A stretch of DNA of 64,000 nt from Fibrobacter sp. UWB13 (GTDB taxonomy: Bacteria; Fibrobacterota; Fibrobacteria; Fibrobacterales; Fibrobacteraceae), in the NCBI RefSeq assembly GCF_900177805.1, contig NZ_FXAX01000002.1, forward strand, positions 1-64,000, read 5' to 3'. A program made the position numbers and the translations under genes. Below are positions 40,442-60,194 of the stretch, piece by piece. The stretch's first letter is position 1. Every line of letters starts with the position of its first letter. Under the pieces are notes generated by a model. It saw only the letters and a list, made by a program, of their open reading frames with translations. It was not told the origin of the DNA and ran no database searches.

Positions 40442-41422
40442 ATGGGAAACATCATATTAAAGATTACCGCCTTGGTATGCGCGATGGCCCTCTGGTTCTA
40501 TGTCATCTCGCTGAAGGACTTCCAACTGACGATGGAAGTTCCGCTTACGTTCGTGAAGTTGCCCGAAGCGCTCGCGATTGCATCGAAGCCGCCTAGCACA
40601 GTTTCGGTGACCGTCGAAGGCAAGCCCCTGGACCTTATCCGCCTGCAGTCGCAAAAGCAGGCCGCGATGGTTGTCGACATGCACCTCGCTGAACTCGGTT
40701 CCAGGCGCATCCACCTCGATTCCAAGAACTTTGTCGCCCCGAACTTTGCTACCGTCCACTACGTGGAACCGGACAACCAGTACCTCTTTATCGATGTCGC
40801 CGTCGATACGCGTATTGAGCGCAGCATCCCCATCAAGAGCAATACGAATTTTAACGCCGCTCCGGGCTATGTGATTGTGCAGCAGCCCAAGCTTTTGCAA
40901 GAAGACTTGAAGGTTTCTGGTGCCCGTAACGCCCTCACGCGAATCATCGATATCCCGACAGATTCCATCTTTATCGACAGCATCAAATCGAGCCAGACGT
41001 TCTCCGTAAAGCTCCAGACCGAACAGTTACCGCCGTTCGTGACGCCCAGCGATACCGTCGCCAAAATTTTTGTCGATGTCCAGAAAATCAAGTCCAAGGA
41101 ATTCAAGAACATCCCCATCCAGCTGATTGGTTTCTATGACCGTGCCTTGAATACGCTCTCGCCGCAGCAGGCGACCGTCGAAATTACCGGCGGTGAAAAA
41201 GTCATTGAAGCCGTGAACAGCAACGACATTGAACTTTTTATTGAATACAACCGCTTCGCTATTGAAGATGCGGACAGCCTCGCTCCCACAGTCAAGTTGA
41301 ACTTGCCGCCCGATATCGACCGCAGCATGTCCATCAAGGCAATCCTTGTCAAACCGGACAAGATCAAGCTCATCAAGACAAAGACCGAGGACGATAATAA
41401 AGACGAGGAATACGGAATATGA
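40442..41422 (+). CDS. YbbR-domain protein (CdaR-like)
   Basis: 326 aa: one N-terminal membrane segment (IILKITALVCAMALWFYVI) and a periplasmic part made of repeated YbbR domains (for example PEALAIASKPPSTVSVTVEG and QATVEITGGEKVIEAV). In Firmicutes YbbR/CdaR regulates the diadenylate cyclase CdaA, which usually lies directly upstream. Here the upstream gene is divergent ftsX, so the cyclase, if any, is elsewhere. Shine-Dalgarno AAGGGGC precedes the ATG. It overlaps tsaD by 4 bases (ATGA). Confidence 0.85.
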   Translation: MGNIILKITALVCAMALWFYVISLKDFQLTMEVPLTFVKLPEALAIASKPPSTVSVTVEGKPLDLIRLQSQKQAAMVVDMHLAELGSRRIHLDSKNFVAPNFATVHYVEPDNQYLFIDVAVDTRIERSIPIKSNTNFNAAPGYVIVQQPKLLQEDLKVSGARNALTRIIDIPTDSIFIDSIKSSQTFSVKLQTEQLPPFVTPSDTVAKIFVDVQKIKSKEFKNIPIQLIGFYDRALNTLSPQQATVEITGGEKVIEAVNSNDIELFIEYNRFAIEDADSLAPTVKLNLPPDIDRSMSIKAILVKPDKIKLIKTKTEDDNKDEEYGI

Positions 41423-42426
41423 TTTGGCTTGGAATTGAATCCAGCTGCGATGAAACCGCCTGCGCCGTTTTGCAGGACGAACCTTTAAAAGTTCTTTCGA
41501 ACCCGCTCTATAGCCAAATTGACGAACACGCCCTCTATGGTGGTGTTGTTCCCGAAATTGCAGCCCGTGCGCACTTGCAAAAGATTGCGCCCATCGCCGA
41601 AGCTGCCGTCAAGGAAGCAGGCATCGAACTCAAGGACATCGACGCGATTGCGTACACCACAGGCCCGGGCCTCATGGGACCGCTCCTCGTCGGTGCAAGC
41701 TTTGCCAAAGGTCTCGCCCGCGATTTGAACATCCCAGCTTACGGCATGAACCATCTCGAAGGCCACCTCGCCGCCGCATGGCTCTCGAACCCGGACATTG
41801 AACCGCCGTTCTTGACGCTTACCGTCTCGGGCGGGCACACGGAACTAGTGATGGAAGAACCGGGATTCAAGTACACAAGCATCGGTCGCACCCGCGATGA
41901 TGCCGCCGGCGAAGCATTCGACAAATGCGGAAAGCTTATCGGTCTCAAGTACCCCGCAGGCGCAACCATTAGCCGCCTCGGCAAAGACCACAACCGCAAA
42001 TTTGTGGAATTCCCGCGTGCGCTCCACACGCACGACAGCTGCGAATTCTCGTTCAGCGGCTTAAAGACCGCCGTGCTCCGTTACACCGAAACACACGACC
42101 CGGAATTTATCCAGCAGAACCTCGGTGACATTTGCGCCTCGCTCGAAGACGCGATTGTCGATAGCCTTGTCACAAAGACCATCAACGCGCTCAAGAAGAC
42201 AAAGATGAAGACGCTCGTGATGGGCGGTGGCGTGAGTGCAAACAGCTGGTTGCGCACCCGCTTGCAGGATTACTGCGACAAGAAGGGTATCCGCTTCTGC
42301 GTGCCGGACCGTAGTCTGAGTACAGACAACGGAGCGATGATTGCCGCAGCCGCCATCCGCCGCAAGTTGCAGGGCAAGCTCGAGTCCATCGATGTCGTGA
42401 AACCGTGGATGCCGCTCGCTCTTTAG
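41419..42426 (+). CDS. tsaD: tRNA N6-threonylcarbamoyladenosine transferase
   Basis: TsaD, with TsaB and TsaE, transfers the threonylcarbamoyl group to A37 of ANN-decoding tRNAs. Seen are LGIESSCDETACAVL (start), the iron-binding MNHLEGHLAA (the two His), VSGGHTELV (nucleotide binding) and GGGVSANSWLR and DNGAMIA near the end. 335 aa is normal length. Co-translated with ybbR; no tsaB/tsaE nearby. Confidence 0.97.
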   Translation: MIWLGIESSCDETACAVLQDEPLKVLSNPLYSQIDEHALYGGVVPEIAARAHLQKIAPIAEAAVKEAGIELKDIDAIAYTTGPGLMGPLLVGASFAKGLARDLNIPAYGMNHLEGHLAAAWLSNPDIEPPFLTLTVSGGHTELVMEEPGFKYTSIGRTRDDAAGEAFDKCGKLIGLKYPAGATISRLGKDHNRKFVEFPRALHTHDSCEFSFSGLKTAVLRYTETHDPEFIQQNLGDICASLEDAIVDSLVTKTINALKKTKMKTLVMGGGVSANSWLRTRLQDYCDKKGIRFCVPDRSLSTDNGAMIAAAAIRRKLQGKLESIDVVKPWMPLAL

Positions 42427-42562: not shown

Positions 42563-45500
42563 ATGAATCGTATCTACTTGTCTGTATTGCTTTTAGCGGC
42601 AGCATCCGCTTTTGCCGAAAAAACTGTAACCCCCGTCGCCCCCAAACTGGTGGATAACTGCTACCAGATTGGCACTGTAGCCGAACTTTTCGGTTTTGCA
42701 GAAATCGTGAACGACGAAAATAATGCAGCTCACGACAATTGCGCCTGCGGAAGACTCACCGCCGATATTCTGGTAAATACCCAAAACCCGGAAAACTCTG
42801 ATGGTTCAGAGATCATTTCGTGGACGCCCATCATGAACTATTGCGGGACCTTCGACGGCAACGGCAAAAGCATAACGGGGCTTAGTTTCATCGACTGGTA
42901 TGGTGGCAACATCGGCTTTTTCGGAAGCACCATCAAAAAATTCGTCTCCCTCGAAGAAGAATACCACGCCACCATCAAGGACCTTAATCTGATCGACGCC
43001 TATTTCAGTGGCGACACCTGCGTCGGAACACTCATCGGACATGGCGAAGAAACCGACATCATCAACGTCCACACAGACGGTTCCGCCCACGGAAGATACG
43101 CCATCGGCGGTTTTGCAGGATACCTCAGAACCGGAACCATTACGCATTCCTTCAACGAAGCGGGCGGCGATGCCAAAGCCGCAGGCGGTGCTTTCATCGG
43201 CGTTGTCGAAGGGAACATCAGCATTACAAATTCCTACAATAAAGGGCACCTTACACCAGACAACGATGGCTGCTGCTCATCATCTACTCCCAAGTCCCCC
43301 ATTCGCCTAGTCGGGTACAATTACGGGACGGTCACTGTTGAAAATTCCTACCACATGCCCCAAAAAACATGGGACAATGATAGGGCATCACTCGATGGTG
43401 TTACCGTCATCCACAGTTTTTACGATGGTTCCTATATCGGTAAGTACGGCACCCACGTCACCACACATGAATTCAACGACGGCACAGTGGCGAAGCTTTT
43501 ACGCGAATACAAATCCGACAGTACCGGCACCGACGGCTCCGTATGGGGACAAGAAATCGGAAAAGACGAATCACCCGTATTTACAGACAAGTTCAACTTT
43601 TATTCCATTATCCCGCAAACTCCAAAGATGGTCGAAGGTTGCTACCAGATCGGCACTGTTGAAGAGCTCTTCGGTTTTGCAAACATCGTCAACACTTCGC
43701 TGTACAACATCACGCCGTTCTGCGCCCAGCTGACAAAAGACATTACCCTCAACAAGGACGTTGCCGCCAAAAAGAAAGGCGACATCCAATGGATTCCGAT
43801 TCGAGATTTCGACGGCACGTTCGACGGTCAGGGCCACACGATTTCGGGCATTTACATTAACGATACGACACTCACAAATGCAGGCTTATTCGCATCTGTT
43901 TTTAACCGAGACCCGCTCTCCCCCACAATCATCAAGGACGTTAACATCGCTGATACATACATTCGTGGTGGTCTGAACACAGGAACCCTGGTGGGCGAAA
44001 TCGACACCCTCAGCAAAGATGTTGTCATCGAAAATTGCGGAGTCAATGCCGTAACGGGGAACTCTTATATATACGAAGCGAAACAGTATAGAGGTGGCAT
44101 TGTCGGGCTCTTGCATGGTGGAACGCTTACGATTAAGCAAACTTCTAGCGAAATCAACTTGTTTGGATATGGCAACGGAGGAGGACTTGTCGGTAACGTC
44201 ATGGGTTCGCTGAACATTGTCAATTCCTACAGCATCCTCACCGACGCCGACTATTTCCAAGCTCAAGGACTTGTGGGTTACGCGCCACAGCCATACTATT
44301 CAGGCAGCACTCCTGTTACAGCACAAATTAACATAGAAAATTCCTATGGGCTTACAAAATCCGCAACAACTCCGGATTTGATATATGTTCACCTCAGTAG
44401 AGTTCCAGTTCCCGTTACATACAAAAACGTTTTCCACATTGACTACTCCGGGACTTCTCAAGACAGCATTGGACTTTTCAGTGCCACAGAAGAACAGTTC
44501 AAAAACGGCGCGGTCGCAAGCGCATTGCACATGTACAAAAGCGAAACCGCCGACGGCTCCGTGTGGGGTCAAAATGTGGGCACAGACGAATATCCAAAGC
44601 TCACCGGAAATATCACAGGCGCTACTTCTGTCAAGAGTTCTTCGTTGAAGTTGGTAACATACGATACAGACACAACCACATATCGCGACAAATATGTCGA
44701 AGGATTAGAAAGCTTACTTCCGATTCCCGAACGCAAGGACTATGTTTTTAAGGGTTGGTTCAGCAACAAGGACTATTCAGGAAGTCCAGTGAAATTCATT
44801 CCAAACGATGCAACAGGCGACTTGACTTATTACGCCCAATGGTGGCACAACCCGAGCATTGTCAACAACTGCTACGAAATCGGCGACATTGGCGAGCTGT
44901 ATCAATTTGCCGACATGTACAACAGCGAAGCGAAGCACACGAGCACATGTGTCAAGCTTACGGCAAACATCATCGACAACAAGAATGTTCTCGTCAACGG
45001 AAAAATCAACGAAGCAGATTCTGCAAAATTCAAAAAATGGACTCCAATCAAGAATTTCATTGGTACGTTTGATGGTCAAGGTCACACCATTTCAGGTCTT
45101 TTCGTTTCCAATTCCGCAGATGGAGTCGGGCTCTTTGGCTCAATCGGCTTAAAAAGAGAAGTCGGTGAAAAAGCACCCGTGACCAAAACAGTCATTCAAA
45201 ACATCAACATCAAAGACTCTTATTTCTACGGAAACAAGTATGTCGGGAGTCTCATTGGACGAGCCGAATCAGCTTCTATTTTGTCGGTGATAAATATTTC
45301 TAGCGAAAGCAACATCAATGCAAATTCCAATCACGCTGGAGGAATCATCGGTTATTATGGCAACGATGAAGGTCCGGACGAAGGCATCGAACTGAACATA
45401 GTCAACGTCCACCATGATGGCGAAACTTTTGGTCTCAATTGCGTCGGAGGCATTGCAGGTTCTATCTTATATGCAAAATCAACTATAATCAACGCGTCTA

Positions 45501-46606
45501 ATACTGGAGCCACTTTAGGGTATGGCGGAATTGGCGGATTAGTCGGGCAAATAATTAGCTACGACACATCTAAATCCACAATGATGTACTCTTACAACGA
45601 AGGCTTCGTCAGTTCCATCAATGCTGCAGTAGGCGGTTTAGTTGCATTCCAGAAATATTTCCTAGATCTTTACAACTCTTACAATGTTGGCAACGTCCAA
45701 GCAGGTACGTTTAAATCTGGCGGGATTATTGGACAAACGGACGGTATTCTTTCCATCGTTAATACGTATAACAAAGGCATTGTCAGCGCCGAAAAGGATT
45801 CATTAGTAGACGCACTCGTCGCCGAAACGGGCGAAAATTCCGAAGTCTCATTGAACAATACATTCTATGTGAATACAGCAAAAACAACTCAAAGCGGAAC
45901 CGCAGCAAGTGCTACCGAGTTTACAGATTTGTCGCTGGCCAAGAAGCTCCATGATTACAACAAGAATGGAATTAATGGTGACGTATGGGGGCAAGAAACA
46001 GGTGATGCTTACCCGCACTTCAAGAAGAATGTTGTCGAAGAATTTGCAGCCGCTTACATCAAGACGCTCAACCTCGAAATTGCAATTAGCTCTTCAAGCA
46101 GCGTGAATTCGAGCAGCTCTACCGCGCAATCGTCATCCAGTTCCGCAAAATCGTCTTCAAGCAGCGTGAATTCAAGTTCTAGCGTAACGGTCTCCAGCTC
46201 TAGCGAAGAATCCAGTAGTTCCGCGAAGTCGTCGTCCTCCTCTGCGAAATCCAGCAGTTCTTCAAAGATTGCTTCGAGTTCTTCGAGCAGCGCGAAATCG
46301 AGCAGCTCCGCGAAGTCATCTTCGAGCAATGCAAAGTCTAGTTCCAGCGTAACTGTTTCCAGCTCAAGCAAGGGAACAGGACTTGAAAAAGTAAGGTCAA
46401 TTGCAAAATTGCACATTGCCGTTGAACCAAACTTCATTTCGATTCACGGAGCACAGATTGGAGCCAACGTAACTTTATTGGATATGCAAGGACGAGTTCT
46501 GTACCGCCATCATGCGGTGAGTTCGGACTTTAACATTGCCAAACCGGCCCCAGGATCGTATATAATACACATCATGAACAAAAAGCAAATCGTCACGATA
46601 CGGTAA
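42563..46606 (+). CDS. Large exported GLUG-like repeat protein with InlB-type repeat, Ser-rich linker and C-terminal sorting-like domain
   Basis: 1347 aa. Signal peptide (about residues 1-18, ending AFA). Three blocks each start with a NCYQIGTVAELFGFA-like sequence and contain GTFDGNGKSITGL/GTFDGQGHTISGI and many GGFAGYL, GGLVGNV and GGIIGYY turns, the pattern of GLUG-type beta-helix adhesins. Between blocks 2 and 3 is a Listeria-Bacteroides/InlB-type repeat (YVFKGWFSNKDYSGSPV...YYAQW, about 710-750). Residues about 1170-1280 are almost only Ser with Ala, Lys, Val and Asn. The last 70 residues (VTLLDMQGRVLYRHHAV...PGSYIIHI) resemble a type A C-terminal sorting domain of type IX-secreted proteins. 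Likely a surface adhesin; ligand unknown. Confidence 0.82.
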   Translation: MNRIYLSVLLLAAASAFAEKTVTPVAPKLVDNCYQIGTVAELFGFAEIVNDENNAAHDNCACGRLTADILVNTQNPENSDGSEIISWTPIMNYCGTFDGNGKSITGLSFIDWYGGNIGFFGSTIKKFVSLEEEYHATIKDLNLIDAYFSGDTCVGTLIGHGEETDIINVHTDGSAHGRYAIGGFAGYLRTGTITHSFNEAGGDAKAAGGAFIGVVEGNISITNSYNKGHLTPDNDGCCSSSTPKSPIRLVGYNYGTVTVENSYHMPQKTWDNDRASLDGVTVIHSFYDGSYIGKYGTHVTTHEFNDGTVAKLLREYKSDSTGTDGSVWGQEIGKDESPVFTDKFNFYSIIPQTPKMVEGCYQIGTVEELFGFANIVNTSLYNITPFCAQLTKDITLNKDVAAKKKGDIQWIPIRDFDGTFDGQGHTISGIYINDTTLTNAGLFASVFNRDPLSPTIIKDVNIADTYIRGGLNTGTLVGEIDTLSKDVVIENCGVNAVTGNSYIYEAKQYRGGIVGLLHGGTLTIKQTSSEINLFGYGNGGGLVGNVMGSLNIVNSYSILTDADYFQAQGLVGYAPQPYYSGSTPVTAQINIENSYGLTKSATTPDLIYVHLSRVPVPVTYKNVFHIDYSGTSQDSIGLFSATEEQFKNGAVASALHMYKSETADGSVWGQNVGTDEYPKLTGNITGATSVKSSSLKLVTYDTDTTTYRDKYVEGLESLLPIPERKDYVFKGWFSNKDYSGSPVKFIPNDATGDLTYYAQWWHNPSIVNNCYEIGDIGELYQFADMYNSEAKHTSTCVKLTANIIDNKNVLVNGKINEADSAKFKKWTPIKNFIGTFDGQGHTISGLFVSNSADGVGLFGSIGLKREVGEKAPVTKTVIQNINIKDSYFYGNKYVGSLIGRAESASILSVINISSESNINANSNHAGGIIGYYGNDEGPDEGIELNIVNVHHDGETFGLNCVGGIAGSILYAKSTIINASNTGATLGYGGIGGLVGQIISYDTSKSTMMYSYNEGFVSSINAAVGGLVAFQKYFLDLYNSYNVGNVQAGTFKSGGIIGQTDGILSIVNTYNKGIVSAEKDSLVDALVAETGENSEVSLNNTFYVNTAKTTQSGTAASATEFTDLSLAKKLHDYNKNGINGDVWGQETGDAYPHFKKNVVEEFAAAYIKTLNLEIAISSSSSVNSSSSTAQSSSSSAKSSSSSVNSSSSVTVSSSSEESSSSAKSSSSSAKSSSSSKIASSSSSSAKSSSSAKSSSSNAKSSSSVTVSSSSKGTGLEKVRSIAKLHIAVEPNFISIHGAQIGANVTLLDMQGRVLYRHHAVSSDFNIAKPAPGSYIIHIMNKKQIVTIR

Positions 46607-48189: not shown

Positions 48190-48846
48190 TTATTTCCAAT
48201 ATATAGCAGCAGAAATGTCCAAATCGTCTGTTTCTAATGAACTTTGATTATGCCAAGAACATCTATAACGGTAATAGTCATTACATCCTTCATTTACCGA
48301 AAATGTGTATTTATCATCTTGCAATTCATTTCCATATACAGTTTCTCTTTGGCAGGAATATAAATCCATGCGACAATCCTTCATTACGTTTACATCGACG
48401 GAATCGCCCCGTACAGTAAATGAATGGATTATCCCAGATAGGTCAATGTCATATTTCTTTTCGACATTCTTAATATCGAAAAGAGAAAAACGAACATGTT
48501 CGTCAGAATCTGGGATTAAGTTGATATCTGCATTTACGCTAGGCTTGTTAAAATCACGACCTTTCTGAACAATAATAGTTTTCTCGTTATTAATGAATTT
48601 GTATTCATAATTACCACAAGCATTAATATCTTTAGATGATCCAGCAGGCCCAAAATGAAATATAATACTACAATTTGAATTGTATAAACACCTTATTTCT
48701 AAGTTGTTATACATTGTTGTAGCGTGCTCCTTTAACACATAAGTACAATCTTTCACATCCTCACCGTTCCCTCCCGTAGAAAATCCTTCACAAGAGAGCA
48801 AGTTAAACAGAAAAGGAATCGACAATAGTATCCAATTTTTTTTCAT
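48190..48846 (-). CDS. Hypothetical lipoprotein
   Basis: 218 aa with a signal peptide and lipobox NLLSC (Cys at about residue 19). The mature part has about ten cysteines in a beta-rich protein (for example CTYVLKEHATTMYNNLEIRC and GCNDYYRYRCSW), suggesting disulfides outside the cytoplasm. No family recognised. It is convergent with birA (6 bases between stops) and divergent from the 1253-aa lipoprotein gene. A+T-rich relative to birA. Confidence 0.7.
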   Translation of the reverse strand: MKKNWILLSIPFLFNLLSCEGFSTGGNGEDVKDCTYVLKEHATTMYNNLEIRCLYNSNCSIIFHFGPAGSSKDINACGNYEYKFINNEKTIIVQKGRDFNKPSVNADINLIPDSDEHVRFSLFDIKNVEKKYDIDLSGIIHSFTVRGDSVDVNVMKDCRMDLYSCQRETVYGNELQDDKYTFSVNEGCNDYYRYRCSWHNQSSLETDDLDISAAIYWK

Positions 48847-49100: not shown

Positions 49101-52100
49101 ATGCACATTGCGTACAACGCATTCAAAAAGGCATTCTTTTCTTTATGCCTGACACTTCCGTTTTACATAGCCGCTTGCGGTGACGATAGCGACAACAATT
49201 CAACCGCAATTATCGAAGACGACGAAGAAGACAACCTCGGTGGCGAAACCTTCAAGGACACCACCATCACGAGCAACCAGTTCAATTCCAACGCGGGCGT
49301 TGTCAACATCATCAAGAGCGAAATTCTGGATGTCAAAAGCGGCAACTCCTACAAAACCATCCAATTCGGTCCGTACACGTGGATGGCAGAGAACGCAAAC
49401 TACAAGATTTCACGCAGTGCATGCTACGACGGGGATACCGACTACTGCAAAACGTACGGACGCTTATACCAGAGCATGAACGCCGACCAGGCTTGCCCCA
49501 GCGGGTTCAAAATTCCGTCCGAAGCGGACTTCAAATACATCACGCGCTTCACAAATTCCATTACCGACCCCGCATTTGGCTTCAACCCGCAAATGTCCGG
49601 CTTCTGTGAAACGGTCAATGGCGAACTGCAATGTTCCCGCCTCGGCAAAGAGGCATACTACCTCACCACCGATTTCAACGTATTTAGAGTCAACAACAAA
49701 AGCAAATTCGACTTTCCCGAAGCAAACTATAGTGCATATTACGCACTCCGTTGCATGAAAACTTCGCACTTTGTCGAAAACGACAAACAGCTCCCGATTT
49801 GCGATTCTACCACTTACAATAGCCTCAGCAACTTCTATGTCGCAAGCAAAGGATACAACTACCGCTGCAACCGCAAAAAATGGGTCGAAGCCGAAGACAA
49901 CTCCTGCCCATCCGCAGAACGTGGCGAAAAGCATTACTACAAAGACACCTTGTTCGTATGCCGCGGTTCCTGGCAATACGCAACCATGAGCGACGTAGAC
50001 GTGAGCTGCACCAAGAAAAACCAGTGGGAAATCCTCAAGCTCAACGGTCAAAGCTACATCTGCGACGATTCCACATGGCGCAAGCCCTCCACCGTCGAAA
50101 CGGCAATCGGACTTTGCACGCTCGACAGCTTAAAGAAGATGAGTGCCGCCATCGACAAGGACAACGAAGACACCACGGATTACATCTGCGATTCCACAGG
50201 CTGGCGCAGGGCAGTCCTCACAGACTCCATCGGGTTCTGCACCAAGAAAAACCAATGGGAACAAAAGAAAAATTACGAACAGGACTACATCTGCAAAGAC
50301 TCCACATGGCGTAAGCCGACCACCATCGAAGCCGCCATCGGGCTCTGCACACCCGACAGCATCAAAAAAATGGGCGCTGTCAAAACCAAGAGCGACACCA
50401 CGGAATACTTCTGCGATTCTACAGGCTGGCGCAGGGCAGTCCTCACAGACTCCATCGGTAAATGCACACTCAGCAGGGATTGGGAAGAGAAAAAGAATTA
50501 CGGCAAGAACTACATCTGTAGGGATTCCGTCTGGAAACGAGCCACCACGCGCGAAGATTCCATCGGATTCTGCACGCCAAAGCGAATTGGCAAAATCGAC
50601 TCCCTCAAGAGCGGCAACAGCTACAGCTCTTACTACTGCGATTCCACAGGCTGGCGCAGCACCGTCATGGTAGACTTTGTCGGCAAATGCGAATCTTCAA
50701 AGTTCTACACGACCGTCGAATACAGGAGCACAACATACGTTTGCCGCCCCACCAAGAAATGGGACATATTGAGCTCGACCGAAAAGAGCATCGGCATTTG
50801 CTCGCCCAAGATCAACGGAAAAATCGACACCTTAAAATCTAGCGGCACAAGCTACATCTGCGATTCCACAAGCTGGCGCACCACTAACATTTACGACTAT
50901 TACGGCGATTGCGATTCCACCAAGCTCTACACAACAAAAACGTTCAACGACGAGACTTACGGCTGCACGAACCCCACAAAATGGGAAAAACTCACGCACC
51001 CCACATCTGAATTCGGATTCTGCATGCCAAAGCTCAAAGGCACCATAAAAACAGACAAATCCGGCAAGGACTTTATCTGCGATAGCATCTGGAGAAACGC
51101 GACCAAAGCCGAAGTTCTCGGCACATGCGATTCGAGCAAGCAAACGCTCCAAAAATCGTACAACTCCGTCACGTACGCTTGCGTGAACAACGAATGGCGA
51201 ACGCTCACCTCATTGGAAACCGCCTTGGGACTATGCACAAAGGAAAATCTAAACATCATAAAGTCAAAGGATAACGTAAGCTACATTTGCAACGATACCG
51301 GCTGGGCAAAATACACCGTCGAGCAAGTATTCGGGGAATGCTTTTATAAAAACGAATACAAGACTGCCGAATTTGGCGGCTACGAATACGTTTGTAAGCA
51401 CAACAAATGGACCTTAATAGACTCCATCGAATACGCCTTGGGATTCTGCAAAGAAACAAGTTACTACAAAGTATATGAATACAAGGGCGATTACTACTAT
51501 TGCAGCGACGATGAGGAATGGGAAATTGCCCCAGCCAGATACGCCCTACAGGCTCTAGATAAATGCACATCAGAAAAACTCGGCAAAACGGCTATGTACC
51601 GCGGGGTAGAGTACTACTGTTCCGATGGCGATATATGGTATGAGTACACAACCTTGGATAAGGAACTTGGCGTATGCCATAGCGGAATCATAGACAAAGT
51701 CGTTGAATATAACGGTAAAAATTACGGTTGTGCGTTCATAAATGGCAATGGACAAAGAAAATATTTTTGGCGAGAAGAAGAAGAAGCAGACAGACTTTTA
51801 GGATTCTGCCATGGGTTGGTAAAAAAAATAATCTGGAAAGAATACAACGGTAAAGATTACGTTTGCGATGACGATGAAGGCAAATGGACAAGCTCCGGCT
51901 CAATGTTCCCCATGTACGGCTCATGCACCTCTAGCCAAACAGAGAAACTAGGTGTTACGGTAGGTTTAAACGGACAGCACTACTATTGCAACACCAACAT
52001 GAACTCAACATCGAATGATTTGACCGGTTGGTACGCCTTACAGCCCATCGACAGCATCAAAGGACCTTGCTATTACGACAAGCTTGGCGACACGCTGACG

Positions 52101-52862
52101 TTCGAAGGCGCCCACTATTATTGCGGCAAAAATATCAACGGGTATTACAGATGGCTCCCCGCCACAACGTTTTTCCAGTACTACGGCAAATGCGGAATGG
52201 CAAACGAAGGCAAAGTCGCCGAGTTCAACGGAATGAACCTGCAATGCTACGAGAACAATTGGCGCAGAGACCCGGGCGATTACAGGAGCATCACCGACTC
52301 CAGAGACGGCAACAGGTACAAGACCATCAAGATTGGCAAGCAGGAATGGTTTGCCGAAAACTTGAAATACGAAATCGAAGGCAGCTGGTGCGGTGGCAAC
52401 ATCAACGGTTGCAATACGTACGGTCGCCTGTACAGTTGGGACATGACCATCGGGCAACCGAAAGACGCACACCCGACATTGGCAGACATCGAAGACCCGG
52501 AAGATTTACAAGGCGTTTGTCCGAAAGGCTGGAGAGTCCCCTCGACGCTAGACTGGAGCATCCTCCTCAAGGAATGCAACAGCGCAGACATCAGCAAAAC
52601 ACTGACGGGTTACGATTCATTGCACACGGACCTCTGCGGATTCTCGGCGTTCCCGACAGGCTACGAAAACGTCTTCTTCCGGAACGGAATCGACTACACA
52701 GAGGAACTTGTGACAAGCTCAACCCTTCCCGCCTACTGGAGTTCTGAACAAGTGACCGACACAACGGCAACATCAGTGGTGATCCCCAGCAAATCTAACA
52801 CAATTTCTGCCACCACTAGAAAGAAGGTCTACGGCTACCCCGTCCGTTGCATCAAGAAATAA
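49101..52862 (+). CDS. Giant lipoprotein with two Fib_succ_major-like domains and about 22 two-cysteine repeats
   Basis: 1253 aa. Start fixed by AAGGAGG just before the ATG. Signal peptide with lipobox IAAC (Cys 26). An acidic linker leads to a first Fib_succ_major-like (TIGR02145-like) segment (about residues 75-220: TIQFGPYTWMAENANY, YGRLYQS, CPSGFKIPSEADF). Residues about 230-1070 are about 22 tandem units of roughly 35-45 residues. Each has one Cys in a (I/L/F/Y)G-x-C position, then Y-x-C and a Trp, as in IGFCTKKNQWEQ...YICKDSTWRK. A second, complete Fib_succ_major-like domain ends the protein (TIKIGKQEWFAENLKY, GVCPKGWRVPS, YWSSEQ, GYPVRCIKK). Probably on the outer surface; function unknown. 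Confidence 0.85.
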   Translation: MHIAYNAFKKAFFSLCLTLPFYIAACGDDSDNNSTAIIEDDEEDNLGGETFKDTTITSNQFNSNAGVVNIIKSEILDVKSGNSYKTIQFGPYTWMAENANYKISRSACYDGDTDYCKTYGRLYQSMNADQACPSGFKIPSEADFKYITRFTNSITDPAFGFNPQMSGFCETVNGELQCSRLGKEAYYLTTDFNVFRVNNKSKFDFPEANYSAYYALRCMKTSHFVENDKQLPICDSTTYNSLSNFYVASKGYNYRCNRKKWVEAEDNSCPSAERGEKHYYKDTLFVCRGSWQYATMSDVDVSCTKKNQWEILKLNGQSYICDDSTWRKPSTVETAIGLCTLDSLKKMSAAIDKDNEDTTDYICDSTGWRRAVLTDSIGFCTKKNQWEQKKNYEQDYICKDSTWRKPTTIEAAIGLCTPDSIKKMGAVKTKSDTTEYFCDSTGWRRAVLTDSIGKCTLSRDWEEKKNYGKNYICRDSVWKRATTREDSIGFCTPKRIGKIDSLKSGNSYSSYYCDSTGWRSTVMVDFVGKCESSKFYTTVEYRSTTYVCRPTKKWDILSSTEKSIGICSPKINGKIDTLKSSGTSYICDSTSWRTTNIYDYYGDCDSTKLYTTKTFNDETYGCTNPTKWEKLTHPTSEFGFCMPKLKGTIKTDKSGKDFICDSIWRNATKAEVLGTCDSSKQTLQKSYNSVTYACVNNEWRTLTSLETALGLCTKENLNIIKSKDNVSYICNDTGWAKYTVEQVFGECFYKNEYKTAEFGGYEYVCKHNKWTLIDSIEYALGFCKETSYYKVYEYKGDYYYCSDDEEWEIAPARYALQALDKCTSEKLGKTAMYRGVEYYCSDGDIWYEYTTLDKELGVCHSGIIDKVVEYNGKNYGCAFINGNGQRKYFWREEEEADRLLGFCHGLVKKIIWKEYNGKDYVCDDDEGKWTSSGSMFPMYGSCTSSQTEKLGVTVGLNGQHYYCNTNMNSTSNDLTGWYALQPIDSIKGPCYYDKLGDTLTFEGAHYYCGKNINGYYRWLPATTFFQYYGKCGMANEGKVAEFNGMNLQCYENNWRRDPGDYRSITDSRDGNRYKTIKIGKQEWFAENLKYEIEGSWCGGNINGCNTYGRLYSWDMTIGQPKDAHPTLADIEDPEDLQGVCPKGWRVPSTLDWSILLKECNSADISKTLTGYDSLHTDLCGFSAFPTGYENVFFRNGIDYTEELVTSSTLPAYWSSEQVTDTTATSVVIPSKSNTISATTRKKVYGYPVRCIKK

Positions 52863-53246: not shown

Positions 53247-56200
53247 TTATTTCTTTAAAACCTTCTTGCCATAGTAGGCGCCACGAGCCTTGCGAGCATC
53301 CTTGCCGTAAGCACGTCCCTTCAAGTCGAACTCACGGTTAGCGGAGCGCGGCAATGCAAACTTGCCCGAGCGGGTATTGATCTGTCCGATGACCGTTGTA
53401 TGTTCGCCACCGTTTTCATCTTCGCCTTCACGGACCACGGTAATCGTTTCAGGCAATTCGCTTGTAATAGAAGCACTCTTCCAATCGGCAACATTGTAAC
53501 GGGCAACCTTCTTGACTGCCAGCACATTTTGCACATTCGGCAGCGGATTGTATCTCAAGTAAGCGCGCAAGGGACTGATATAAGCACCAGCCTTCCCTCT
53601 GACAAAATCACCAATAACAAAGCCATCACCAGCGACACCGACAAACCCATAAATGGCACGACCATCAATCAGCTCAGCATCGCCTTCAGCCCATTTCTTG
53701 TACTGGTACACACCGACAAATTCCCAGTCGCCTCTTCTGACCGCAAATTCAGGCTCATTTGTTACAAGTTTCACAGGACCACGAATTTCAAGAGACGTGT
53801 GACCCTTCTCCAGTTGCACAATATAAGGCGTATTTGCCTTGAGAAGCGTACTGTAATCGCATTCTCCGACAAGATTGTCACAAACCTTAGCCGGAGCTTC
53901 AGCAGGCTTATCCCAAACACCGAGCGTTTTAGCATCGAGCCTTATAATCACGCCCTTATCATTCTTAACAGTGTCCATTCTCGAGAATGAATCAATATGC
54001 TCAGCGCCAATCAAGTTATCCGCATAGACCTCGAACGGGAACATGACCGTTGCATATCTGCCAGCGGTAAAGCCTCTATTGAATTTGACTTCATCCACCG
54101 TAGTTTCCTGAGTAATGACAACAGGCATATCCTTGTCGAAATTACCGTCAAGCGTAGCAACCATCTTATCTTCTGCATTCTTCGTAATCACAAGGGCAGG
54201 GGGATACACATACTTGTCAGCAAGTTCAAGCAGCCCTTCTTCATGGATGATTCCCGTATAAGAGTTGCCCAGGTCATCGTAGTAACTCATGTCATTAGCA
54301 ACCAAAATGGAGTCATTATAGCTACTGGCCTTGACCGTAGCACCGGAGAGATAGATTGTCATTTGCTTAGAGTTGTCAGCATAAATACCCCTGCAACCAT
54401 CTTCTGCCAACGCCGTCACCGTACCGCCCTTCAAATACACATCACTCCCATAGGAGCCGATGCCAAAGCATGCACAATTTTCTTCGCTATAATAGATTGA
54501 AGATGTAGCATTGACTTTACCGCCGGCAATTGTAACATTCCCGTTCGCATTAATAGCGTAACCACCCGTAGCGGTAACGGTTCCTCCGTTGATGTCAACA
54601 TTTCCGAGAGAAGAAAGACCTGATCCAGATTCAGGTCTTTCACCTGTAGCATGGGCTTCAACCGTACCGCCATTGACCACCAGAGAATTTCCATGAGCAT
54701 AAATAGCTTGTTTTCTTCCAAAGGCTTTTACAACGCCATCATTAATCTTAACAGAGCTACCTCCAATACCGGTTATCTCGCCTGTAGCCTTAACAACGCC
54801 GCCATTGATTGTCAATGCATCATCAACATCTATAGCAGAATAAGAATCCGCATTTACTTCAAAAACGCCCTGATTTACGCCCGTGCTCTGAGCATAGATG
54901 GTGAGGTTTTCAAACAAAGTATTATTTTCAACAGTCAACTTGGCGTCATCCGCAAGAATCAAGTGAAGAGTCGGAGCCGCAAACGCAAAGTTGTTTTTAT
55001 AAGACACTTCGCTATTGACCAAGACCCAACCACCGTTTGTAAACAATTCACTATCAGCGCATTCGGTACCGACAAGCTCGTAATCCGGAGTGACGCTCTG
55101 TTCCTCACCATTTTCATCAAGGTAAGTAACTTCCGTCAAATCTTCCCACAAGCCATAGGCAATAGGACTATTGAAATTCGTAAAGTCAAACAGTTCCTGA
55201 TAAGACTTGTCGGCATACCACCTGAACTTTTTCCCTTTAGCAACAGGAGTGCAAGGAATTTTGCCAAGAATCACAGGCTTATCCTCATCAGCGTCGTCAA
55301 CAACAAACTTGACCATTTTCGCCGGATACAGATTTTTGTGAGCAATTAATGCAATCTGTTCAGCATTAAGAGTTTCACTATACGCATTACCTGGTTCATC
55401 CACATAAACAAGATCAGGAGCAACCGCTATTGAATATTTATCCCCTCCTGGAATAATATACATACTAGCCTGGACCGTCGCGCCTGCAAGCTTAATACCA
55501 GCAAAATCCTCATCAGTCTCTTTTATAACAATTTCTCCAGAAGCAGCAACAGAGCCTTTATTAAATTCAGCATTACTTGTTTCAATAGCGTCAGCCCAGA
55601 TTCTACCACCATTTACAACAAACTTATCCGCGACATTTAAAGAAAGTTTCTTATTCGCATCATTTAAAGCAAGACTCAATCCGCCCATTTTTTTGCCTAG
55701 GCTTTGAGCATAAATGGTCAGATTGCCAAATTCAGCACTGCCTTCACTATTATTGCATTCAAAAGTCAGCCAAGCGTCATCCATAAGAATGAGATTGACA
55801 TTTTTCCCTGCAAAATTGAAATCGCTGCAATTGTAATACATCTTGCCACTGACCACGTACCATCCATCCGATGGCGTGAACGAGACTCCCATCGAGCTAC
55901 CAGAATTAGCGGCGCCTGGAGTAGAGCTAGAACTGGTGGGGACAAGTGCAGTATAGTCTTCTGTAAGCGTCTGCGTTACGCCGTTCTCATCGATGTAAGT
56001 GATTTCAACCAAATCCTCCCACTTGGCATAAGCCGTAGCACCACTTTCGAAATTCGTAAAGTCAAACGGGGTTTGATAAGACTTATCGGCATACCACCCG
56101 ACGAAAGTTCCCAAATAACGAGTGGAAGCGCCAGGATCTACGCCAGGAACCCACACCTTTTCGCTAACAGAGCTGCCATCAACAAACGTGATCGTTTTGG

Positions 56201-58949
56201 CAAGAGAAAGCGTTTTGCCAGCCATCAATGCAATCTGGTCAGCATCAAGAGTATTGCGGTACTCATTACCTTTTTCATCCACATAAACAAGACCGGGGTA
56301 AACCATTACTACATACTGGGACCCTTCTGGAATAGAATACGAATTAGCCCAGACCGTCGCACCAGCAAATAAAATAGCAGCAAAATCCTTATCACTCTCT
56401 TTTACAACAACATCTCCATCAACAATAACAGAGCCATTAATAAATTCAAACATATCAGCTTCAATAGAGCTACCTATCAAAATTGAGCCTCCACAAACAG
56501 ACAATGCATCTGTTTTCAAAGAAGACACTTCAAATTCGCCCATATTTTTGCCCAGACTTTGGGCATAAATGTTAAGATCGCCAAATTCAGCACTGCCTTC
56601 ATTACTGTTGCAATCAACAGTCAGCTTCGCTCCATCCATAAGAATGAGATTGACTTCTGCCCCACTAAACTTGAAATCTTCACAATCGTAAAGCACTTCG
56701 CCACTGACCACATACCATCCCGTCGTGTTGCTAGAACTAGAGGCAACACTACTGGAACTAGAAACGATGCTAGAACTGCTTGCAGCACCGCTCGAACTGG
56801 AGCTAGGACTAGAGGCTACAAGTACAGTGTAGTTATCCTCAAGCGTCTGCGTTACGCCGTACTCATCGATGTAAGTAACTTCAACCAAATTTTCCCACCT
56901 GGCATAAGCATAGTCTCCATCCTGGAAATTCGTAAAGTCAAACAGAGGATCGTCACTAGACTTGCCGGTATACCACCCGAGAAACTTTTTCCAAATGTGA
57001 GTAGGGTTGCTAGGAATTACACCAGGGATCCACGCCTTTTCACTCACAGAGCTGCCATCAACAAACTTGACCATCTTCGCAGGGGCAACCATTTTGCCTG
57101 CCATTGATGCAATTTGGTCTGTACTAAGATAGCTGCGGTACGCATTACCTTGTTCATCACCATAAACAAGATCAGTCGAAATCCATAATGAATATTCTGG
57201 AATTGTATAAAAACTAGCCTTGACAGTTGCGCCAGAAAAATTGACACTGGTTAATTCACCCTCATTTAAAATAATTCCACCATCAACAACTACAGAACCT
57301 TTCTCAAATGTAACATAATCCGCTTCAAGAGAGCCTTTTATTGAGATTGATCCTCCATCAACGATCAAATAACCAGCATTTAAAGAAGACACTTCAAATT
57401 TGCCCATGTCTTTGCCCAAACTTTGAGCATAAATGAACAAACTCTCAAATTCAGCGCATTTTTCATTATTGCTATTTGTAACAGTCAGCTTCGCTCCATC
57501 CATAAGAATGAGATTGACATCTTTCCCTGTAAAATCGAAATCGCTACAATCATAAGACACTTCGCCACTGACTACATACCATTCCGTCGTGTTGCTAGAA
57601 CTAGAAACGCTACCTGAACTAGAAATGCTACTAGAACTAGGAGCAACACCACTTGAACTAGAAATTCTACTAGAACTGCTTGCAGCACCGCTTGAACTGG
57701 CAACACTGCTAGAACTAGCGGCTACAAGTACAGTGTAGTCTTCCGTAAGCGTCTGCTCCTGACCATTTCCATCGATGTAAGTAACATTAACCAAATTCTC
57801 CCACTTGGCATAAGCAAAATCTCCACTCTCAAAATTCGTAAAGTCAAACAGAGTCTTATACGACTTATCAGCATACCACCCGAGGAACTTCTTCCAAATG
57901 CGAGTGGGTTCGCTAGGAATTACACCAGGAATCCACGCCTTTGTACTCACAGAGCTGCCATCAACAAACGTGAGCCATTTCGCAGGGGCAACCGTTTTGC
58001 CCGCCATTAATGCAAGCTGTTCAGCACTAAGAGTACCGCTATACGCATTACCTTGTTCATCCCCATAAAGAAGATTATTCCCAACCTTCGCTTCACATAG
58101 GTTCGAAACAGAATACGAATTCGCCCTGACCGTTGCGCTAGCAAACTGAATACAAGCACTAACGGTATCTGCATCACTTACAGCAGATACTCCTTCAGTA
58201 ACAACAACAGTTCCATTATAAAAACGAACATGTTTAGCTTCAATACCTCCACCAACCGATACAGAACCATTTTCGAATTCAACGGCCCCTGCTTTAATAT
58301 CGCCACCTATCGATACAAAACCATTTTCGAACTCAACGCTCTTCTTTGCTACAACACCGCCACCAACCGATACTGAACCATTTTGGAATTCAACGCTATT
58401 TGCTTCAACATTGCCACCTATCGATACAGAACCGTTATTAACACAAACTGATGTCGCATTAACATTGCCCGTTGTTAAGACAGCGCCACTCAGGACATTA
58501 ATAGCATAAGTGACTTTTAAAGAAGGCACTTCAAATCTGCCCATGTCATCGCCCAAGCTTTGAGCATAAATGTTAAGATTGAGAAATTCAGCAGCACATC
58601 CTTCATCACCATTTGTAACAGTCAACTTAGCTCCATCCATAAGAAGGAGGTTAACCCTTTGCCCTGCAAAATTAAAATCGCTACAATCGTAAAACACTTC
58701 ACCCTTGACTACATACCATTCCGGCATGCTACTAGAACTACTTGCAGCACCGCTCGAACTAGAGACACTGCTAGAACTGGCAGCGGCAAGTACAATGAAT
58801 TCCTCCGTAAGCGTTTCCTCTCCATTCCAACCAATATACTTGATCGTCTCTTGGCTAGGATCTTCCGCCCATACGGTTGAAACGGCAAGCAACGATACGA
58901 GCAGAATCAACACTGACCGTACTTTTGCAAATATGCTTTGGTTATTCAT
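53247..58949 (-). CDS. Giant (1900-aa) exported protein of five large repeat units with polyserine linkers
   Basis: Signal peptide about residues 1-28 (ending VWA). Five units begin near residues 35, 386, 693, 983 and 1275 with VTYIDENGVTQTLTEDYTVL-like text. In units 1-4 this is followed by a Ser-rich linker (SSSSGAASSSS) and then WYVVSGEVxYDCSDF, VNLILMDGAKLTV, LNIYAQSLGKxMG, short NGSVSVGG strands like a beta-helix, MAGKTVAPAKMVKFVDGSSV, and GWYADKSYxTLFDFTNF...AYAKW, an InlB/Listeria-Bacteroides-type repeat. Unit 5 lacks the serines. Residues about 1600-1900 form a separate region ending FDLKGRAYGKDARKARGAYY, then GKKVLKK, probably a sorting or anchoring tail. Likely a surface adhesin. 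Followed by two minigenes. Confidence 0.8.
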   Translation of the reverse strand: MNNQSIFAKVRSVLILLVSLLAVSTVWAEDPSQETIKYIGWNGEETLTEEFIVLAAASSSSVSSSSGAASSSSSMPEWYVVKGEVFYDCSDFNFAGQRVNLLLMDGAKLTVTNGDEGCAAEFLNLNIYAQSLGDDMGRFEVPSLKVTYAINVLSGAVLTTGNVNATSVCVNNGSVSIGGNVEANSVEFQNGSVSVGGGVVAKKSVEFENGFVSIGGDIKAGAVEFENGSVSVGGGIEAKHVRFYNGTVVVTEGVSAVSDADTVSACIQFASATVRANSYSVSNLCEAKVGNNLLYGDEQGNAYSGTLSAEQLALMAGKTVAPAKWLTFVDGSSVSTKAWIPGVIPSEPTRIWKKFLGWYADKSYKTLFDFTNFESGDFAYAKWENLVNVTYIDGNGQEQTLTEDYTVLVAASSSSVASSSGAASSSSRISSSSGVAPSSSSISSSGSVSSSSNTTEWYVVSGEVSYDCSDFDFTGKDVNLILMDGAKLTVTNSNNEKCAEFESLFIYAQSLGKDMGKFEVSSLNAGYLIVDGGSISIKGSLEADYVTFEKGSVVVDGGIILNEGELTSVNFSGATVKASFYTIPEYSLWISTDLVYGDEQGNAYRSYLSTDQIASMAGKMVAPAKMVKFVDGSSVSEKAWIPGVIPSNPTHIWKKFLGWYTGKSSDDPLFDFTNFQDGDYAYARWENLVEVTYIDEYGVTQTLEDNYTVLVASSPSSSSSGAASSSSIVSSSSSVASSSSNTTGWYVVSGEVLYDCEDFKFSGAEVNLILMDGAKLTVDCNSNEGSAEFGDLNIYAQSLGKNMGEFEVSSLKTDALSVCGGSILIGSSIEADMFEFINGSVIVDGDVVVKESDKDFAAILFAGATVWANSYSIPEGSQYVVMVYPGLVYVDEKGNEYRNTLDADQIALMAGKTLSLAKTITFVDGSSVSEKVWVPGVDPGASTRYLGTFVGWYADKSYQTPFDFTNFESGATAYAKWEDLVEITYIDENGVTQTLTEDYTALVPTSSSSTPGAANSGSSMGVSFTPSDGWYVVSGKMYYNCSDFNFAGKNVNLILMDDAWLTFECNNSEGSAEFGNLTIYAQSLGKKMGGLSLALNDANKKLSLNVADKFVVNGGRIWADAIETSNAEFNKGSVAASGEIVIKETDEDFAGIKLAGATVQASMYIIPGGDKYSIAVAPDLVYVDEPGNAYSETLNAEQIALIAHKNLYPAKMVKFVVDDADEDKPVILGKIPCTPVAKGKKFRWYADKSYQELFDFTNFNSPIAYGLWEDLTEVTYLDENGEEQSVTPDYELVGTECADSELFTNGGWVLVNSEVSYKNNFAFAAPTLHLILADDAKLTVENNTLFENLTIYAQSTGVNQGVFEVNADSYSAIDVDDALTINGGVVKATGEITGIGGSSVKINDGVVKAFGRKQAIYAHGNSLVVNGGTVEAHATGERPESGSGLSSLGNVDINGGTVTATGGYAINANGNVTIAGGKVNATSSIYYSEENCACFGIGSYGSDVYLKGGTVTALAEDGCRGIYADNSKQMTIYLSGATVKASSYNDSILVANDMSYYDDLGNSYTGIIHEEGLLELADKYVYPPALVITKNAEDKMVATLDGNFDKDMPVVITQETTVDEVKFNRGFTAGRYATVMFPFEVYADNLIGAEHIDSFSRMDTVKNDKGVIIRLDAKTLGVWDKPAEAPAKVCDNLVGECDYSTLLKANTPYIVQLEKGHTSLEIRGPVKLVTNEPEFAVRRGDWEFVGVYQYKKWAEGDAELIDGRAIYGFVGVAGDGFVIGDFVRGKAGAYISPLRAYLRYNPLPNVQNVLAVKKVARYNVADWKSASITSELPETITVVREGEDENGGEHTTVIGQINTRSGKFALPRSANREFDLKGRAYGKDARKARGAYYGKKVLKK

Positions 58950-59095: not shown

Positions 59096-59317
59096 CTAGC
59101 GCTTGAAATACATCGCGCCAATAAGCGAGACGGCGAGCATCACAATCATCGCCGTAAGTCCCATGTCCGCCAGATCACGGTGTTCACCCGCCGCCCCCGT
59201 TTCAATCAGCAAAATGCAAACGAGAGCCATAACGGCGGCAACGCCACCCATCGTATGGAACATCTTGACTTTTTCTTCGTTCGTGAACTTTCCGTTCGGG
59301 CGATTAATAAAGGGCAT
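59096..59317 (-). CDS. Small two-pass membrane protein in the quinone operon
   Basis: 73 aa from the ATG at 59317, selected because GGGAGGTGA stands five bases upstream; an ATG ten codons earlier lacks a site. Two membrane segments (VAAVMALVCILLIETGAA and GLTAMIVMLAVSLIGAMYF) with a short charged loop. It overlaps the end of ubiA by 14 bases and is therefore co-translated with it. No family recognised; a partner or stabiliser of the prenyltransferase is possible but unproven. Confidence 0.7.
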   Translation of the reverse strand: MPFINRPNGKFTNEEKVKMFHTMGGVAAVMALVCILLIETGAAGEHRDLADMGLTAMIVMLAVSLIGAMYFKR

Positions 59318-60194
59318 TGACGTCACCTCCCATGCAAATCCAGACAATGAGCCCCACCATCACGAGCGCGCTAATAGCCACGTTCGCAAGGAAAAAGTCG
59401 CGGTTCATGGCATCCAGGTCATTCGACTTTCGGAACAGGTGGATGTAAACTATAGCAGCAGTCATGAGCCCTGTAATTGTCCACCAAATCCAGCCCATGT
59501 TCCAGAAAATGCCGAACACCACACAAAGCACAAGCATCGCCAAATGGCTCGCCAGCGCAATGCGCAATGACTTTTCTAGGCCAAAGCGAGCGGGTACAGA
59601 ATGCAAGCCCTGCTTGCGGTCAATTTCAATGTCCTGCGTGGCGTAAATGATGTCAAAGCCGCCCATCCAGAGCATCAGAATGAACAGGAGGAATATCGGG
59701 AACACGGCAAATTCACCGCGAACGGCAATCCAGGCGCCAAGCGGGCTCATGCCAATCGCAAAACCAAGGAACCAATGGCAAAGCCAACTAAAACGCTTCC
59801 AGTACGAATACGAGAGCAGCAATAACCACACCGGGAACGCAAGCAAGCCAGCGAGGGGTTTCAAAAGTGCCGCGAACACCACGAACAAAACGCCGTTCAA
59901 CGCAAGGAACGCAATCACCGACTTGCGGCTCAGGCGCCCAGAGGGCAAATGGCGCTTTGCCGTCCGCGGATTCTCCGCATCGAACTTGGCGTCTGCAATG
60001 CGATTAAAGCTCATGGCGCTGTTACGGGCGGTCACCATGCAAAGCACAATGAGCACGATAATGCGGGCGGTTTCAAAAGCGCTCATATCGCGGAAACCGT
60101 TTGCCGCAACCCACATGGAACCAATCGCAAACGGCATCGCAAACAGCGAATGGCTCAAACGGACAAGATGTGTAAATTCAAGGATTTTATTCAT
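59304..60194 (-). CDS. ubiA: UbiA-family prenyltransferase (quinone biosynthesis)
   Basis: 296 aa, about eight or nine membrane segments. The two Asp-rich motifs are present: NRIADAKFDAENPRTA (NxxxDxxxD, about residue 65) and TQDIEIDRKQGLHSVP (about 190). It attaches a polyprenyl chain to an aromatic acid at the membrane. With ubiX and ubiE beside it and no menaquinone-specific men genes, it may be either a 4-hydroxybenzoate prenyltransferase or the prenylating enzyme (MqnP) of the futalosine menaquinone route. The latter is attractive for an anaerobe, but this is inference. Confidence 0.88.
   Translation of the reverse strand: MNKILEFTHLVRLSHSLFAMPFAIGSMWVAANGFRDMSAFETARIIVLIVLCMVTARNSAMSFNRIADAKFDAENPRTAKRHLPSGRLSRKSVIAFLALNGVLFVVFAALLKPLAGLLAFPVWLLLLSYSYWKRFSWLCHWFLGFAIGMSPLGAWIAVRGEFAVFPIFLLFILMLWMGGFDIIYATQDIEIDRKQGLHSVPARFGLEKSLRIALASHLAMLVLCVVFGIFWNMGWIWWTITGLMTAAIVYIHLFRKSNDLDAMNRDFFLANVAISALVMVGLIVWICMGGDVNALY

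Follow-up and report, generated by a model that had tools for sequence, protein, structure and literature searches.

Tandem two-cysteine repeats in a FISUMP-domain lipoprotein of Fibrobacter: a possible disulfide-stiffened surface arm

Introduction

The FISUMP domain (Fib_succ_major; TIGR02145, PF09603) characterizes a very large and poorly understood family of surface proteins in Fibrobacter, a genus with a key part in cellulose breakdown in the rumen. One gene of this kind in Fibrobacter sp. UWB13 encodes, in addition, a long run of short repeats with two cysteines each, which raises the question of what the repeat is, whether its cysteines are paired, and what such an array would do on the cell. 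The repeat unit, its organization in pairs and its likely disulfide make up a concrete module that bears on how Fibrobacter grips fibre, and the array also raises the question of how disulfides are formed in strict anaerobes. The analysis was centered on a stretch of 64,000 nucleotides (contig NZ_FXAX01000002.1, positions 1 to 64,000), hereafter the window, to which all coordinates refer.

Architecture of the Repeat Protein

The gene and its parts were assigned as follows:

49101..52862, + strand: whole gene, an open ORF with an ATG start whose translation is a predicted lipoprotein of 1253 aa
49101..49178, + strand: signal peptide with a lipobox-like IAAC ending at Cys26, called from the sequence
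49323..49565, + strand: N-terminal match to FISUMP, limited to the first half of the model (TIGR02145, E 4.7e-24, positions 2-85 of 176; PF09603, E 1.2e-11)
49788..52289, + strand: array of 22 two-cysteine units, from unit carving and alignment
49995..51326, + strand: units 3-14, a paired zone with odd and even types alternating (225-nt DNA period in units 4-8)
51327..52289, + strand: units 15-22, heterogeneous; among orthologues, no part of the array has diverged more than units 15-18
52287..52856, + strand: FISUMP domain at the C-terminus (TIGR02145/PF09603), most variable over its last ~73 residues

From the N- to the C-terminus, the 1253-aa protein consisted of a hydrophobic lipobox signal, an acidic tether containing Ser and Asn, the FISUMP half match, the 22 units and a full FISUMP domain. 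The signal ended in FYIAAC26, and Cys26 was called as the putative lipoprotein cysteine by the lipobox rule. Among 27 relatives, 23 carried a lipobox-like pattern at the N-terminus under a strict definition, and the remaining four showed a similar ...AC by eye. The C-terminal FISUMP domain was full-length (TIGR02145 positions 1-175 of 176, E 2.6e-44), whereas the N-terminal match stopped at model position 85, although a divergent remainder may reach to about 49754. TIGR02145 scores were 214.6 bits for the whole protein, 152 for the C-terminal and 86 for the N-terminal match, exceeding the curated cut-off of 41.65 bits, and the model was matched in all 10 relatives scanned. A first-pass annotation had placed about 22 repeats between two Fib_succ_major-like domains at 49101-52862; the number proved to be exactly 22 and the C-terminal domain to be complete, while only half of an N-terminal domain was recognized, and the coordinates were those of the whole gene, not of the repeats proper.

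Residues 230-1063 held 44 cysteines, falling into units of 34-48 residues of the form C(A)...C(B)...W. All three columns were invariant in 22/22 units of the alignment, and Tyr was frequent. The cysteines were spaced far more regularly than expected by chance, with a mean distance of 18.95 residues and a standard deviation of 2.57; when 44 cysteines were placed at random 10,000 times, the standard deviation averaged 17.6 and was never below 10.8. This is in keeping with the regular two-cysteine repeat with Trp first described.

FISUMP was the sole family matched when the whole protein was compared to Pfam and NCBIfam, the repeat region had no match in PHROGs, the best match of a unit profile to PDB sequences had an E of 0.087, and phmmer with the whole protein returned no known repeat family. 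When the 22 units were searched singly, five Pfam families each matched one unit (best E 0.041), which was taken as chance. The view that the repeat is not a named domain was therefore borne out in Pfam, NCBIfam, PHROGs and PDB sequences, where the HMM match to a characterized repeat family that would have overturned it did not arise. No published account of the two-cysteine repeat was found by title or abstract among the papers listed for FISUMP and Fibrobacter, a search whose coverage leaves out most subscription papers, and the repeat is not mentioned in the accessible parts of the S85 genome paper (PMC3079729) or the S85 cellulose proteome paper (PMC6851124).

Unit Pairs and Array Length

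In its first half, the array was built from pairs of units, about 75 aa (225 nt) per pair, in which odd units resembled odd units and even units resembled even units. Identity was 38-61% among units 3, 5, and 7 and 37-76% among units 4, 6, 8, and 10, compared to 14-31% for neighbouring units from 3 to 9, and a tandem period of 225 nt was detected at the DNA level in units 4-8. Over the window array, mean identity rose from 24.3% at lag 1 to 35.3% at lag 2, a difference reached in 0 of 2000 permutations. Identity was also higher at lag 2 than at lag 1 in 21 of the 22 contiguous arrays with at least 8 units (6 of 28 proteins, whose arrays were short or interrupted, were not included), and in 12 of these 22 the difference was reached in at most 20 of 2000 permutations; the arrays are related and thus not independent. 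Using a profile trained on window units 3-14, alternation was followed in most other arrays through roughly units 3-12, beyond which the types were mixed; 223 of 355 neighbouring pairs switched type, with p below 0.05 in 6 of 21 arrays taken alone. It had been thought that units 2-6 were much more alike than the others, which was not upheld, since the pattern was one of odd/even alternation, clearest over units 3-14. The accompanying idea of internal duplication agrees with the repeated block and the 225-nt period, with a two-unit pair as the duplicated segment rather than the block of units 2-6.

Comparing unit numbers among orthologues, as the first-pass annotation had proposed, showed that array length varies. 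Several of the closest orthologues differed by 74 residues, equal to two units, and a single-unit difference of 36 residues was found between the array protein at locus L120 and the second copies at L122, L140, and L142, three loci where two array genes stand in tandem.

Cysteine Pairing and Disulfide Formation

A profile (HMM) count of cysteine loss returned only units with both cysteines, as the model locks on these residues, and gaps between cysteines were counted instead, using a set of 72 proteins from which those with fewer than four units were skipped. Of the long gaps of 46-65 residues, 47 led from a B cysteine to the A that followed it and none led from an A to a B, with A/B labels that are rough, as the printed examples among 160 A-A gaps of 12-30 residues were largely B cysteines mislabelled as A. 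Removing Ser-rich linkers and duplicates from the 47 left 43 non-redundant segments, of which 42, in 12 proteins, were recognized by eye as cysteine-less units, and one, from L081, was judged not to be a unit. The cysteine-less units kept the Y-x-(V/Y)...W pattern and alternated with cysteine units, and alignment of the two profiles (hhalign, E 2.5e-4, probability 43%) was weak and no more than suggestive of homology. The proteins that carry cysteine-less units are related to one another, so these units stand for few independent losses. A regular alternation of cysteine-bearing and cysteine-less units was seen in the arrays of L134, L135, and 10 more relatives.

The 47 to 0 count indicates that the two cysteines of a unit, A and B, belong to each other. 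Gains were also paired, with two extra cysteines (A+2 and B+6), always both, in one unit of five array proteins (L120, L126, and the second copies in L122, L140, and L142). Paired loss and paired gain, though few as independent events, lend indirect support to an A-B disulfide inside each unit, and with it to the first suggestion, made from spacing, of one disulfide per unit. The cysteines could instead be metal ligands or a redox-active chain, and Fibrobacter, a strict anaerobe without a recognizable DsbB or VKOR, offers some grounds for this. However, the cysteines come and go in within-unit pairs, two per unit would alone make a poor metal site, and a protein of the DsbA family is widespread in the genus, so that we consider such a role very improbable.

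The DsbA family (PF01323) was matched in 58 of 61 genomes of the genus, and in 29/29 of the good ones. In 11 loci read, each DsbA-family protein had a CPYC motif, a GTP loop and a lipobox-like cysteine. One such protein lies at G000 C1:980795-981193 (L156, L168). Profiles of DsbB and VKOR each matched in 0 of the 61 genomes, and in 6 and 3 of 14 known control genomes, respectively; a search for Erv/ALR oxidases had no match in Fibrobacter and none in the controls either, and was hence uninformative. By these profile searches, either the partner of DsbA has gone unrecognized or the cysteines would be oxidized in some other way, and the lack of matches to DsbB and VKOR counts against a disulfide-stiffened arm.

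Predicted Fold and Candidate Function

Units 7-12 were modelled with AF2 from 24 alignment rows that represent the window together with three named Fibrobacter loci; the rows overlap one another, so that the true depth is lower. Confidence was high (pLDDT 91.7, pTM 0.65), and all six units were predicted with a similar short helix and three strands. The strand pattern recurred in a model of units 21-22 with the C-terminal FISUMP domain, which had a whole-model pLDDT of 54.7 and in which the FISUMP part, a candidate C-type lectin fold, was of low confidence. The proposed modelling of consecutive units, here six, thus gave a confident per-unit prediction that indirectly supports a small three-stranded module, while a pTM of 0.65 does not establish a rigid arm.

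About an even chance is given to the array being a disulfide-stiffened surface arm that carries a binding domain. The protein would be a lipoprotein of the outer-membrane type, with its lipid-anchored N-terminus beside the FISUMP-like half domain; 22 modules of ~37 residues, each combining a short helix with a meander of three strands and pinned by one internal disulfide, would together make up a long arm, the length of which would change mainly through gain or loss of unit pairs. At its end the arm would carry the C-terminal FISUMP domain, a sequence relative of DUF1566/Lcl_C, which most likely binds a surface ligand, e.g., plant fibre or another surface component. Of this picture, the units, their pairing and the FISUMP matches are shown, as are the confinement to one lineage and the fast divergence described below; surface exposure, stiffness and ligand binding are presumed.

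The first-pass annotation had pictured a stalk presenting the C-terminal domain, which fits the window protein. In 6 of 27 relatives, however, the array runs to within 17 residues of the C-terminus, leaving no C-terminal domain to present and implying that the units may themselves bind. They would then be small, aromatic-rich ligand-binding modules in a multivalent array, comparable to choline-binding repeats or the CROP repeats of toxins, and FISUMP domains would be accessories, a possibility that we rate clearly below that of an arm. The invariant Trp and frequent Tyr of each unit suit this role, as does the rapid divergence of units 15-18 between orthologues (31-48% identity), which, with the last 73 FISUMP residues (45-52%), are among the least conserved parts of the protein. 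The top PDB matches of the six-unit model in Foldseek were also choline-binding modules, CROPs and glucansucrase repeats, tandem short beta-hairpin repeats like the Fibrobacter array, led by a choline-binding module (E 1.9e-4, TM 0.10, rmsd 20.7). Against it, the top matches had a TM of about 0.1 and an rmsd mostly of 15-20 Å and hence show only a local hairpin resemblance; no Z in VIA exceeded 2.4, and its rows included neither choline-binding nor CROP chains; and none of the 22 units matched the choline-binding repeat in Pfam at E up to 10. The Fibrobacter unit further differs in its length of ~37 aa and its invariant cysteine pair and Trp.

The best viral match in Foldseek was an uncharacterized protein with scores similar to those of the best PDB match. 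Fibronectin type I modules, which have two disulfides each, are likewise small cysteine-containing beta modules in tandem (VIA Z 2.3 over 54 residues, rmsd 2.9), but the Fibrobacter unit has one cysteine pair and the Z is too low for kinship. Overall, these structural matches to predicted models give no evidence of kinship, nor of a new fold.

For the surface arm, the ligand-binding tip draws support from the literature on FISUMP and DUF1566. Published studies report a FISUMP protein in the cell-envelope proteome of F. succinogenes grown on cellulose (PMC4619616), list TIGR02145 among putative cellulose-binding proteins or cohesin analogues, with 17-119 copies in all Fibrobacteres genomes of the study but one (PMC4704652), and describe DUF1566 and Fib_succ_major as similar (PMC4159848). 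The same proposal of a cohesin analogue in so many copies would suit a scaffold, with FISUMP or the units as docking sites for other proteins of the envelope (enzymes), although no partner module was identified and we regard this as improbable. The C-terminal domain is a full FISUMP member and the N-terminal region matches the first half, whereas the 22-unit array lies outside the FISUMP models. In relatives, DUF1566/Lcl_C (PF07603) matched the same region as FISUMP, with a best E of 7.8e-7 that did not reach the curated cut-off.

FISUMP and DUF1566 are both described as target domains of DGRs (PMC4159848, PMC8143477). The C-terminal variable region (52500-52862) matched only itself in its own genome at E 0.001, and, with no second DNA copy of this end, there was no sign of a DGR template repeat; diversification by a DGR was rejected, the Fibrobacter protein being unlike DUF1566 DGR targets in having no near-copy template in its genome. 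FISUMP-like domains also occurred in 12 viral contigs (L144-L155), at 23-31% identity.

Distribution and Locus Evolution

The unit profile was searched at E 0.01 in a sample of 100 genomes of the phylum and matched 36/36 genomes of the genus, 6/11 of other genera of the family, 2/2 of a sister family within the order, and 0/51 outside the order. In this sample the repeat is confined to Fibrobacterales. The 840-residue array as a single query was less sensitive than the unit profile and retrieved 22 of 41 relatives, all within the genus; the named relatives, at four loci, were Fibrobacter succinogenes and uncultured Fibrobacter metagenome-assembled genomes. A mobile origin was rejected, as the array had no relatives in viral contigs, plasmids or phages. 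Tentatively, and with less assurance than for the arm itself, we propose that an unnamed disulfide-repeat fold specific to Fibrobacterales, found in every one of these genus genomes, forms diversifying binding arrays on the surface of an obligate anaerobe, with many disulfides introduced by the conserved lipoprotein DsbA, which would be re-oxidized by a partner other than a recognizable DsbB or VKOR.

Five loci shared an upstream gene that we take to be tsaD-like (41419-42426; 98-100% identity) and, where covered, a downstream gene that is presumably UbiA-like (59304-60194; 95-97% identity). The repeat protein at the same loci was far more diverged than these syntenic neighbours, with only 49-63% identity (tblastn). 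Its regional dN/dS of about 0.03-0.33 indicates purifying selection, and its dS of 0.8-3 or saturated, compared to 0.27-0.83 in tsaD, suggests that the repeat gene was replaced by diverged alleles.

Three other genes of the window were noted. A small lipoprotein-like protein (48190-48846, - strand) adjoins the repeat gene and had a match in L140 only (49.5%; 23 loci compared). On the other side, 53247-58949 (- strand) encodes an exported-type protein of 1900 aa with about four copies of a long block, poly-Ser linkers and List_Bact_rpt matches. A List_Bact_rpt match was also present in a 1347-aa protein (42563-46606, + strand), together with a match to the T9SS type A tail that, at 19.4 bits, stayed below the cut-off of 23.
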